From: Fimbriimonadaceae bacterium
Lineage (GTDB): Bacteria > Armatimonadota > Fimbriimonadia > Fimbriimonadales > Fimbriimonadaceae
DNA: 64,000 nucleotides
Assembly: GCA_019187105.1 (NCBI GenBank)
Contig: JABAQM010000001.1
Coordinates: forward strand, 62,001 to 126,000
Direction of reading: 5' to 3'
The stretch's first letter is position 1. The number at the start of each line of letters is the position of its first letter. Shown one piece after another: positions 17,031 to 20,082 of the stretch. Made by a program: the position numbers and the translations under genes. The notes beneath the pieces are model-generated. The model saw only the letters and a list, made by a program, of their open reading frames with translations, did no database searches and was not told the origin of the DNA.

Positions 17031-17067
17031 ACCGGGAATCTCCTTGGTATCGAATAGGAGAAGTGCA

Positions 17068-17604
17068 ATGCAAAACCTCAAACCAGCCCTTTTGGCAATG
17101 GCCCTGGCAGCGGTTGCGAGTTCAGGTGCGGCAAACTTCGAACTGGGTAAGAACGGCGGAACATCCTTCATTGATCCTCCGATGAATGTCGACTTGGATG
17201 GCTCCGAAGAAACTAGCAACATCCGCCGACTGGGCTTCCGGAACGACTTCCACGAGATGTTTTCCAAGACAGAACTCGACACGTTGGTCAAACGCGTTCG
17301 TCGAGTGTCCCCGCTGGATAAAGGCTTTGACGAGATCGACTACGATGGGATCGGAGCATTCCTGAACGAGCGACCCAGATTTACGGGTCCGCCCATGGAC
17401 ATGTACCGCGTCGGCATCAAGACCCACTGGCCGTTGGACATGGACAACAGGCGTGACTTGATGGATGGCGGATCCAATAACGTCAATCTCGGCGACAAGG
17501 GCGGCGAAGGAGTCGTTCCAGAGCCGGGATCGATTGCGGCTCTGGCAATTGGGCTTGGAGCGCTCGTGGCTCGGCGTTTCAGGCCGACATCAACAGCGGA
17601 CTGA
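17068..17604 (+). CDS. PEP-CTERM sorted exported protein
   Basis: A 178-residue exported protein. The start is ATG 17068, with AGGAGAAG about 5 nt upstream. A signal peptide (KPALLAMALAAVASSGAA) is followed by a Gly/Asp-rich mature part with no domain I recognise. The C-terminus is a clear PEP-CTERM sorting signal: the VPEPGS motif, a hydrophobic helix (IAALAIGLGALVA) and a basic end (RRFRPTS). Such proteins are processed by an exosortase and placed in or beyond the envelope, often with exopolysaccharide. No exosortase gene lies in the window. Confidence 0.83.
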   Translation: MQNLKPALLAMALAAVASSGAANFELGKNGGTSFIDPPMNVDLDGSEETSNIRRLGFRNDFHEMFSKTELDTLVKRVRRVSPLDKGFDEIDYDGIGAFLNERPRFTGPPMDMYRVGIKTHWPLDMDNRRDLMDGGSNNVNLGDKGGEGVVPEPGSIAALAIGLGALVARRFRPTSTAD

Positions 17605-17639: not shown

Positions 17640-18653
17640 CTAGTCGCGGGGGGCTTTGAGGTTCCTGAGGCACAACTCAAAATAGGTACGAAGAGTCGCT
17701 GCTCGTTCGCGGTCTGCGGTTTCTCGGCCGGTTTCGAGACTGCGGACCGACCCTTGGCCGCTAATCATCCGGTCCACGGTGCGGTCGTGCTCCTCAAACA
17801 ACCCTGAATAGCGAGCCCACCTCACCCACGATAGGCACCGAATCGCTTCTGAAAGCTTGAGCTTCCTTGCCGTAACGCCGAAACGTAGTGCGTCAGCGCA
17901 GGTCCTCGACAAACGGTCGGCATCGAGCTGCGACCTGGCTTCCAGCTCAGCCTGGATGAGATGCTCGCAGGCGCCCAGAAAACCCGGCGTAAGGCCGCGT
18001 GTGGTGCTGACCTGGAAGAAGGCACCAACAGCTCGGCTGGATTCGCCGAACACACCCCGCACAACCCAATCGTGGAATCCGAGGGCCTCGATCATCGGTT
18101 TAACCTTTCCCATCTGCGCAAGGGCGAAAAGGTGGCACATGATTGAGTGCCGCGTCGCGGCGCCGACGTTCACGGGACTGGCAGTAAGGTAATCACCGGC
18201 AGCGGTCCTCGCAAAGCGCATCTCGGTTTCGAGGTTTTGGGCAGCTCGGTCGGCATGCTTGTCCGCGGCCGCCAAAGACCATCCAGGATGAAGCGCTTGA
18301 AGCCGGATGTGGTCCTCCTCGTTGACCATCACCGTCAGCGACCGCGCGCGATCGAGGAGAATCGTTCGAGAGCGGGCCTGATGGTCACCGTACGGTGAGA
18401 TGAGCCGCGCAGCAACAAACAGCTCTTCTTCACTAGGGCTAAGCGACGACCAGGTTTGTAGTTCCCAGCCCAGATCTCGACAGGCCTTGATGATCAACGA
18501 CTGCACCGAGGTGCGGTCCCGCTCGTCGAGGCGATGCGGAAAAGCGAAGCCCCAGAGGTTGCGGGCGACCCTCGCGCGGCTGGACATGACGACGGCCACG
18601 TTAGGCGCGTCCGCATTCAGCCAGAAGGGTTCGGACGCGGCCCGAAGGACCAT
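17640..18653 (-). CDS. mcsB: McsB-like protein arginine kinase with altered active site
   Basis: A 337-residue ATP:guanido phosphotransferase of the McsB type, which in Firmicutes phosphorylates arginines to mark proteins for ClpCP. Family motifs are SSRARVARNL (24-33), VNEEDHIRLQAL (110-121) and RGVFGESSRAVGAFFQVS. Two key positions differ. The catalytic Cys motif (usual TSCPTNVG) reads TASPVNVG with Ser159, and the C-terminal phosphoarginine-binding RDXXRA motif reads ADRERA. The usual partners ctsR, mcsA and clpC are not adjacent. The start is uncertain: ATG 18653 fits the family N-terminus, while TTG 18677 sits directly against GGAG. Activity may be reduced or changed. Confidence 0.82.
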   Translation of the reverse strand: MVLRAASEPFWLNADAPNVAVVMSSRARVARNLWGFAFPHRLDERDRTSVQSLIIKACRDLGWELQTWSSLSPSEEELFVAARLISPYGDHQARSRTILLDRARSLTVMVNEEDHIRLQALHPGWSLAAADKHADRAAQNLETEMRFARTAAGDYLTASPVNVGAATRHSIMCHLFALAQMGKVKPMIEALGFHDWVVRGVFGESSRAVGAFFQVSTTRGLTPGFLGACEHLIQAELEARSQLDADRLSRTCADALRFGVTARKLKLSEAIRCLSWVRWARYSGLFEEHDRTVDRMISGQGSVRSLETGRETADRERAATLRTYFELCLRNLKAPRD

Positions 18654-18692
18654 CGTCCGCCAAGAAACATGAGCCAACTCCTAGATCTTGGC

Positions 18693-19229
18693 CTATCCGC
18701 CGAGGGGGAAGGGAGCGATCTTGGTGATTGTGGCGGCGCCCGAAGTGAATCTCAGCGATCCGACGAACCAACTGGGTTCCAAGTTAACACCGGTAAGGTT
18801 GAATTCCGCAACGTTGTCTGCTCTAACCTGGACTTGGATCGTGAACGCGTAGTCGATCGTCAGGCCATAGGTCACCGAACCCGACTCCGTGATGTTGGCA
18901 ATAACGAACGGGTGCTGGCCGGTTTGGTTCTTGATGACACCCTTCAGCCGCCGACCCGATCCAGGCAGGAACGCCTCGAGGGCATCCGCAAGTCGGGTTG
19001 GTGTAGGAAACAGGCTCTGGAACAGACCGGATTCCCCGACGACATAACCGTCGATCGAATACGCATAGACCTTCGACGGAGGACAGGTCGTGGCCCCACT
19101 ATTTCGGCTCTGGTTCAGGGCGTCTCGGATACGGACGCCCGTCAAATCGATCGTCGCGGTTTGTGCGCTCCCAATCGCCGCAATGAAAACTAACCCTGTG
19201 ACAACAAAACCTCTTGACAACTTCGTCAT
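18693..19229 (-). CDS. exported protein of unknown function
   Basis: A 178-residue protein starting at ATG 19229, 8 nt after GAGG in GAGGAGC. The signal peptide is KLSRGFVVTGLVFIAAIGSAQ. The mature part is rich in Thr, Val and Asn, predicted beta-rich, and contains two Cys at most. I recognise no family. It lies 54 nt downstream of another exported-protein gene on the same strand and 39 nt upstream of mcsB, so the three may share a transcript, but their roles are not obviously linked. Confidence 0.6.
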   Translation of the reverse strand: MTKLSRGFVVTGLVFIAAIGSAQTATIDLTGVRIRDALNQSRNSGATTCPPSKVYAYSIDGYVVGESGLFQSLFPTPTRLADALEAFLPGSGRRLKGVIKNQTGQHPFVIANITESGSVTYGLTIDYAFTIQVQVRADNVAEFNLTGVNLEPSWFVGSLRFTSGAATITKIAPFPLGG

Positions 19230-19283
19230 GCCATGCTCCTCACGGAACATTATATGACAAGGTGCCCCCGACGACCTAAGGGG

Positions 19284-19973
19284 TTACTGTTTTTTCCACG
19301 TTTCGTCGACTTCGATTTGCAGGTCCTCGTCGTTACGCGTCGCAATGATCGTGGTTTTGTCGTCGGAGAGCTCCAAACCGTAAGTCCAGACCAGCCCACT
19401 GATAAATGTGAATTCCAGGGTTGTAGGGCCCACGAGCTTCCAGGTTCCCTCTTCGGTAAGACTTCCCTCTTCAAAGAGTTCGAAAGTCTTGTCGGCCTTG
19501 ACAATGAACTGCATATCCTCGGTGCAGATCACCTCACCGTCGTTGACTTCGAAAGAACCCGGGCAGGAGGTCGACTTGCCGCCCGCAGCCATTTCGGTAA
19601 CTTCCCAGGTCGCAACCATGTCGGAGTCGCTGATCGACCCGGTCGATCCGCCGGTTGTTGAGCCGGTCGTACCTCCAGTCGTTGTGCCTCCTGTGGTGCC
19701 GCCCGTCGTTGTTCCGCCAGTTGCAGTCCCACCGGTTGTCGTTCCACCTGTCGTCGTCCCTCCAGTCGTGGTTGTGCCGCCAGTAGTGGAAGTGCCCGTA
19801 GTGGAAGAGCCTCCTGTTGCCGTGCCGCCACCCGTGGTCGATGAGCCCGACGTCACGGCCGCCGACGATCCGCCACCGCCGCATCCGCTGATTCCGATAA
19901 ACGTGGCAGCAGCGGCGAAGCAAGCGATAGCCGAAACAAGTCCAACATTGGTTCGAAGGTGAAGGATTTTCAT
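19284..19973 (-). CDS. lipoprotein with Thr-Gly repeat linker
   Basis: A protein of about 229 residues. The N-terminus from ATG 19973 carries a lipoprotein signal (SAIACFAAAATFIGISGC, Cys acylated). About 75 residues of nearly pure Thr and Gly in TTTGGT-like units follow, then a compact C-terminal domain (WEVTEMAAGGKSTSCPGSFEV, FELFEEGSLTEEGTWKL) similar in style to lipocalin-like proteins with a repeated T.TGTW..... layout. The repeat acts as a flexible linker between membrane anchor and domain. A TTG 6 nt upstream is an alternative start. Ligand and role are unknown. Confidence 0.65.
   Translation of the reverse strand: MKILHLRTNVGLVSAIACFAAAATFIGISGCGGGGSSAAVTSGSSTTGGGTATGGSSTTGTSTTGGTTTTGGTTTGGTTTGGTATGGTTTGGTTGGTTTGGTTGSTTGGSTGSISDSDMVATWEVTEMAAGGKSTSCPGSFEVNDGEVICTEDMQFIVKADKTFELFEEGSLTEEGTWKLVGPTTLEFTFISGLVWTYGLELSDDKTTIIATRNDEDLQIEVDETWKKQ
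19640..19850. repeat. low-complexity tract encoding the Thr-Gly linker
   Basis: Short degenerate repeats of the type CCTCCAGTCGTTGT on the plus strand encode the Thr-Gly linker on the minus strand. Codon choice varies among units, so the tract is maintained at protein level and may vary in length between strains. Confidence 0.6.
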
Positions 19974-20082
19974 GCGCAAGAGGTGAGTTAACCCAGTAGA
20001 AAAGACGGCTCACCCAAATTATCGGTTCATCGAAGGCGATTTCAAGTCAGGGCGGATACAATGGCGCTGAGGTCGGCAAGCA

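Follow-up and report, generated by a model that had tools for sequence, protein, structure and literature searches.

A McsB-like protein of an Armatimonadota bacterium with serine at the catalytic cysteine position, a candidate protein-arginine kinase

The window, that is, the whole 64,000-nt stretch of DNA analysed here (C1:62001-126000 of its genome), contains a gene for a McsB-like protein in which the catalytic cysteine is replaced (Table 1). The initial annotation had placed an ORF at 17640-18653 and had given no strand. The ORF is real, but it lies on the minus strand, the plus strand of this interval being interrupted by stops, and position 18653 corresponds to an internal ATG. Two features make the TTG at 18677 the likelier start: homologues share a conserved SW[RK]-like segment (S/E-W-K/R-x-x-V-L) that is encoded 5′ of the ATG, and the frame is closed by a stop two codons before the TTG. 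This holds although the sequence AGGAG stands directly against the TTG.

Table 1. Coordinates of the mcsB-like gene, its motifs and the fused homologues.
Feature	Position	Strand	Remarks
Cys-less McsB-like protein-arginine kinase gene (putative function)	17640..18677	minus	345 aa from TTG 18677; alternative start ATG 18653
NEEDHIR	18303..18323	minus	substrate Glu E121 and ATP-site Arg R125 (TTG numbering); N119-H123 and R125 invariant in the order's 59 non-Cys proteins
Ser codon in place of catalytic Cys	18177..18179	minus	Ser167 from TTG, Ser159 from ATG
RGVFGESS	18036..18059	minus	ATP-site Arg R207 and substrate Glu E212; invariant in 112/112 non-Cys proteins
ADRERA, remnant of phosphoarginine-receptor motif RDxxRA	17700..17717	minus	first Arg lost
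McsA-McsB fusions	L099:819-2303, L100:601-2025, L108:857-2272		genomes G179, G183, G184

Upstream of mcsB and on the same strand, a 185-aa ORF with a signal-like N-terminus (window 18693-19250) stops 15 bases short of the gene; a Pfam search of this ORF gave no match. It is preceded by an ORF with a lipoprotein-like start followed by Gly- and Thr-rich repeats (19284-19979, minus strand). A small exported-looking protein carrying a PEP-CTERM sorting signal (TIGR02595) is encoded convergently with mcsB (17044-17604, plus strand). Across the order to which the organism belongs, mcsB adjoins an flhB-type flagellar export gene at 12 of 61 loci (L001, L003, L006, L016, L019, L020, L022, L026, L030, L076, L077 and L110), and PF01312 confirmed this neighbour at L016.

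The window protein matched the catalytic domain of ATP:guanido phosphotransferases (PF00217) with 111.7 bits against a cut-off of 22.4. Unlike characterized McsB, it scored under the cut-off of the NCBIfam McsB equivalog model (NF053707; 159.7 versus 500 bits). According to an AlphaFold model built with 39 sequences (pLDDT 88.8, pTM 0.88), the protein superimposes on the octameric McsB of Bacillus subtilis (6TV6) with a Z of 35.3 and an rmsd of 2.9 over 323 aligned residues. By this comparison it is of full-length McsB type, with a catalytic and a dimerization part and no phosphagen N-domain; its identity to McsB of B. subtilis (6TV6, 6FH1-6FH3) and S. aureus (8GQD) is ∼30%. Arginine and creatine kinases resemble the protein in the fold of the catalytic domain and in active-site residues (Z about 18-21, essentially over residues 22-250), and differ from it in possessing an N-terminal phosphagen-kinase domain, which the 345-aa protein lacks, and in their partners.

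As in McsB, all five ATP-binding arginines and both substrate-binding glutamates are present in the window protein; we take these residues to be equivalent to those of arginine kinase. In the latter enzyme, six arginines, two glutamates and one cysteine matter, according to PMC11075012. The NEEDHIR motif and the FGESS loop are both in place, as the initial annotation had stated. Among the 59 proteins of the order that lack the cysteine, 23 of 330 alignment columns are invariant, the median column being 47% conserved, and the invariant residues include R34, R36, R125, R176, R207, E121, E212, NEEDH and N170. The wider set of 112 non-Cys proteins described below shows the same invariance for all five ATP arginines, the two glutamates, D122, H123 and N170, and three of its members depart from NEEDH (L083 and L084 have GDEDH, and one protein has Q in place of N). 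L083 and L084, from genomes G071 and G072, match PF00217, are without the LISP segment and have the most altered active sites seen. In-frame stops were absent from the PF00217 matches among those listed in searches of 61 and 291 genomes.

The motif that reads TSCPTN in canonical McsB reads TASPVN in the window protein; the catalytic cysteine of the TxCPTN motif is absent and, as first noted, Ser159 (ATG numbering) takes its place. In profile searches, PF00217 matched in 52 of 61 genomes comprising the organism and its relatives; across the phylum, 169 of 291 genomes had a match. From these we extracted 120 Armatimonadota homologues, one per genome: the best 30 of the 52, the best 30 of the 169 and 60 spread over families. 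The cysteine position was restricted to four residues, serine in 105 proteins, histidine in five, aspartate in two and cysteine in eight. The earlier guess of a clade-wide change in Armatimonadota thus held, 112 of 120 homologues being non-Cys. The window's order had serine in 58 of 61 proteins, and thus in 58 of the 59 that are non-Cys, aspartate in one and cysteine in two. Because serine occurs in 58 of the 61, we rejected a sequencing error or a single-strain change as its origin. Cysteine and RDxxRA, whose retention in the clade would have pointed to such an origin, are mostly not kept, although two of the 61 have cysteine. We also scanned named genomes with a single pattern, NEEDHxR[LIV]Q, which yielded at least 80 mcsB loci: all four from named Armatimonadetes encode serine, and 76 of 76 others (at least 76 such loci, mostly from Firmicutes, were among the matches listed) encode cysteine.

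A quick maximum-likelihood tree, from which the cysteine column was excluded, was computed from 117 rows: the 120 homologues minus seven truncated or odd rows and ten near-duplicates, plus 14 outgroup rows. Support was weak (<80%) at 38 of 114 inner forks. Outside the order, six Armatimonadota homologues are Cys-type (L031, L033, L041, L047, L053 and L103), and these grouped with a Verrucomicrobia row (SH-aLRT 89); five of the six keep the RD of RDxxRA, which is RA in L053. The remaining Armatimonadota rows fell into a 98-row group (SH-aLRT 96) that also holds L269, a Cys-type protein from one of the 76 loci not named Armatimonadetes. Two isolated tips within the Cys-less group, L029 and L076, have cysteine, both as ACPTN; L076 was placed as sister to the window protein (SH-aLRT 86), with a long branch leading to each. 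To explain the cysteine column, this tree requires no fewer than seven state changes. Judged from these sequences, the replacement of cysteine by serine is old within Armatimonadota.

A second set of differences concerns the receptor for phosphoarginine. In B. subtilis McsB, phosphorylated Arg194 docks in the receptor of the next dimer to give an octamer, and the R337A/D338A variant accumulates as dimers, as described in PMC8370763. The equivalent of Arg194 is proline in the window protein. The RDxxRA motif, which the initial annotation had described as absent, is incomplete: its first arginine is alanine, as in the reported ADRERA, but the aspartate, the second arginine and the final alanine remain. 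Within the order, Arg337 is kept in one and Asp338 in eight of the 60 proteins that have this column. The two losses are separable since family f2 has arginine at 194 in 14 of 14 proteins and Arg337 in none of the 14, while L104-L106 (genomes G205-G207), which are Ser-type and belong to another family, retain the RD of the receptor. At L104 and L105, a short two-finger McsA without a UVR domain is encoded beside mcsB. With neither the Arg194 nor the Arg337 equivalent left in the window protein, a loss of control by phosphoarginine docking, which had been raised as a phosphoarginine-independent kinase, is plausible.

The window mcsB is not encoded together with ctsR, mcsA and clpC, as originally observed, and in this arrangement differs from the known McsB systems. 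CtsR had no match in a profile search of 63 genomes, including that of the organism, and the strict McsA zinc-finger pattern had no match within the window. The genome nonetheless encodes a ClpC, unlinked to mcsB at ∼696 kb of C1. This 833-aa protein has ClpC/MecB as its best PDB relatives (989.7 bits versus 772.7 for ClpB); the NCBIfam ClpB and ClpA models match it below their cut-offs. Since the genome encodes both this protein and the McsA-like ORF described below, the claim that McsB is without its usual partners is unsupported. Clp_N, which also covers other Clp ATPases, matched in 67 of 67 genomes. One relative, G019, has McsB and a McsA-like gene and possibly lacks ClpC, since its only two Clp_N matches are weaker ones, the best at E 2e-14. 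The N-domain glutamates of ClpC (TEH motifs), for which we assume positions E32/E106, were discarded as a phosphoarginine marker because their conservation does not depend on whether a genome has McsB.

Partner genes are adjacent at many other loci. The flanks examined extended about 1-1.5 kb from mcsB, so the following counts of partner genes are lower bounds. A ClpC-type N-terminus is encoded beside mcsB at no fewer than 38 of the 120 loci, 36 of them non-Cys, and a strict zinc-finger McsA beside mcsB or within its frame at 42 or more. Within the order, clpC is beside mcsB at all four loci of family f5 and at none of the 57 of families f1 and f2, and the strict McsA was found at none of 61. 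At the 53 non-Cys loci outside the order, the McsA zinc-finger motif is beside or fused to mcsB in at least 39 and the start of clpC is beside it in at least 33; mcsA, clpC or both occur at 44, both at 28 and neither, within these short flanks, at nine. Several genomes in the order, including two of 1.5 Mb, gave no McsB match. Nineteen of the genomes lacking PF00217 were searched a second time, together with the organism's own, by means of the A1 profile, and 18 of the 19 gave no convincing match. In G039, split pieces of McsB lie at contig ends, one of them beside clpC; this genome was counted as mcsB-positive.

The search for McsA relied on a profile built from operon McsA proteins outside the order. 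This profile detected small zinc-finger ORFs elsewhere in the genome in 38 of 45 genomes of the order (E 1e-5 or better), among them one in the organism itself, unlinked to mcsB and outside the window (G000:C1:256107-256220, E 3.7e-6). The corresponding 74-aa ORF (G000:C1:256053-256277, or L276:2554-2778) begins at a TTG and overlaps an ilvE-type gene at the latter's end; among the IlvE-like genes at the fetched loci described below, this one alone was named by a model (TIGR01122). Its CPFC-x14-CPLC segment corresponds to the second zinc finger of McsA, Cx2C-x14-Cx2C, with CV in place of CY. The ORF is among the most reduced of its family. It differs from McsA in that the UVR domain is absent (the genome's only two UVR matches are frames of 622 and 710 aa), the first finger was not seen and the gene overlaps ilvE rather than adjoining mcsB. 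Searched alone, it matched no McsA model, including NF053706 (cut-off 210 bits; none at E 0.1); four relatives in the order score 14.9-19.9 bits on that model. All 20 McsA-like loci fetched from the order, including one from a genome in which McsB was not found (G050), have the Cx2C...Cx2C pattern and an IlvE-like gene. An alignment of 17 of the 20 matched operon McsA over 94 columns spanning both fingers (hhalign 98.9%, E 3.5e-17); the first finger has been lost in several of these ORFs. The synteny at 20 of 20 loci and the profile comparison led us to reject a chance CxxC match as the explanation for the unlinked McsA.

The profile of the order's McsA-like ORFs matched in 50 of 61 genomes, 17 of which had been used to build it. 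Both genes were found in 48 of the 61, mcsB alone in five, the mcsA-like gene alone in two and neither in six, a co-occurrence with a Fisher value of 2e-4 in a test that treats genomes as unrelated and with G039 scored positive on fragments. Of the genomes at least 95% complete, 36 had both, two mcsB alone, none the mcsA-like gene alone and three neither. The McsA proteins of those non-Cys loci that were read or aligned terminate shortly past the second zinc finger. A longer McsA is encoded beside five Cys-type genes (L031, L033, L041, L047 and L053), with a UVR match listed at four. At three loci of one family, a McsB of the Ser type carries a McsA-type zinc-finger segment fused in frame at its N-terminus, giving proteins of 472-495 aa (Table 1).

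We also searched for an enzyme that removes phosphoarginine. An LMW-phosphatase fold was matched in 60 of 67 genomes, with at least 78 matches. The organism's single match has an arsenate-reductase-like P-loop, and a dedicated YwlE-type phosphatase was thus not seen in this genome. Of the 50 LMW-phosphatase loci read, one (L175, in G247) has the YwlE-like P-loop CTGNTCRS (CTGNTCRSPMAE), the threonine of which presumably marks arginine phosphatases. G247 carries a Cys-type McsB with RDxxRA kept. We rejected YwlE as a marker of phosphoarginine signalling since it does not discriminate: G247 is the only one of six non-order genomes with a Cys-type McsB to have it among the loci read.

The active-site cysteine of McsB is treated as catalytically essential, and engineered B. 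subtilis McsB C167S is kinase-inactive yet keeps its adaptor effect in MgsR degradation, as set out in PMC7235348. The same report assigns the interaction with McsB to McsA's second zinc finger. For S. aureus McsB, PMC12467219 describes how the catalytic Cys157 is oriented by McsA through the loop just before this residue. The persistence of this finger in the order therefore favours a working kinase whose active-site loop is shaped by McsA. On the evidence of sequence and its conservation, gene order, co-occurrence and predicted fold, we consider it reasonably probable that the window protein works in the ClpC pathway as a protein-arginine kinase that is active but differently tuned. McsB-type catalysis would be retained: ATP would be held by the five conserved arginines, and the two conserved glutamates would hold and activate the target arginine. 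The hydrogen bond that cysteine makes to the target guanidinium would come instead from serine, or in relatives sometimes from histidine or aspartate, serine being a weaker, probably neutral, partner in place of a thiolate. The reduced McsA, essentially the second zinc finger, would bind McsB and position its active-site loop, and tagged proteins would be delivered to ClpC and its protease. The kinase is probably a dimer without the phosphoarginine-gated octamer, because it lacks the phosphoarginine donor as well as the first arginine in the acceptor pocket.

Several observations count against a working kinase: the genome shows no dedicated YwlE-type phosphatase, the organism's own McsA-like ORF, a putative gene, is very reduced, the two genes are not strictly paired among the relatives, the ClpC of G019 is uncertain, and nine of the 53 Cys-less loci outside the order show neither partner in their short flanks. 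The properties of C167S make a natural kinase-dead adaptor the chief rival. Such a protein would bind ATP and McsA and bring substrates to ClpC without phosphorylating arginine; the adjacency of clpC and the co-occurrence with McsA fit it too, as does the lack of a visible YwlE-type phosphatase in the genome. An adaptor has no obvious need, however, of both substrate glutamates and N170, which all 112 non-Cys proteins have preserved, nor does the role account for a cysteine position limited to S, H, D or C at which cysteine reappears twice. We therefore regard the adaptor as unlikely, though a serious contender. The pseudokinase suggested in the initial annotation is disfavoured on related grounds, the other catalytic and ATP-binding residues being invariant in the order and cysteine having reappeared. 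The slow kinase proposed there is possible. In favour of a working enzyme, cysteine mutants of arginine kinase are reportedly 'partially active', in the words of the title of Gattis 2004.

The altered substrate-side residue and the catalytic fold shared with arginine and creatine kinases could instead suggest a guanidino kinase that has given up protein arginine for a small molecule or another acceptor residue. We judge this improbable: the alignment with those enzymes is confined to residues ∼22-250 whereas the McsB match includes the dimerization part, the N-terminal phosphagen domain is lacking, and relatives retain the link to McsA and ClpC. Least credible of all is gene decay that will end in loss, to which the dissolved gene order of f1 and f2 and the genomes of the order without a detected McsB might point, since the PF00217 matches listed are free of internal stops and 23 columns are invariant across the order.

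More broadly, the guanidino-kinase active site may have been naturally redesigned across the phylum, with one lineage of protein-arginine kinases replacing cysteine with serine (also histidine or aspartate), keeping the rest, relying on a one-zinc-finger activator, dropping the phosphoarginine-gated octamer and regaining cysteine at least twice. Cysteine would then tune the enzyme without being required; we give this broader proposal an even chance. Among the open-licence papers listed, none dealt with a Cys-less McsB clade and none linked Armatimonadota to protein-arginine phosphorylation. Most examined members of the phylum carry a natural serine in an otherwise intact site, and histidine, aspartate and regained cysteine occur as variants; the role of the cysteine is therefore testable with evolution's own mutants. 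For structural work, either the minimal single-finger activator or one of the naturally fused McsA-McsB proteins would be suitable. If the kinase is active, protein-arginine phosphorylation would extend to Armatimonadota.
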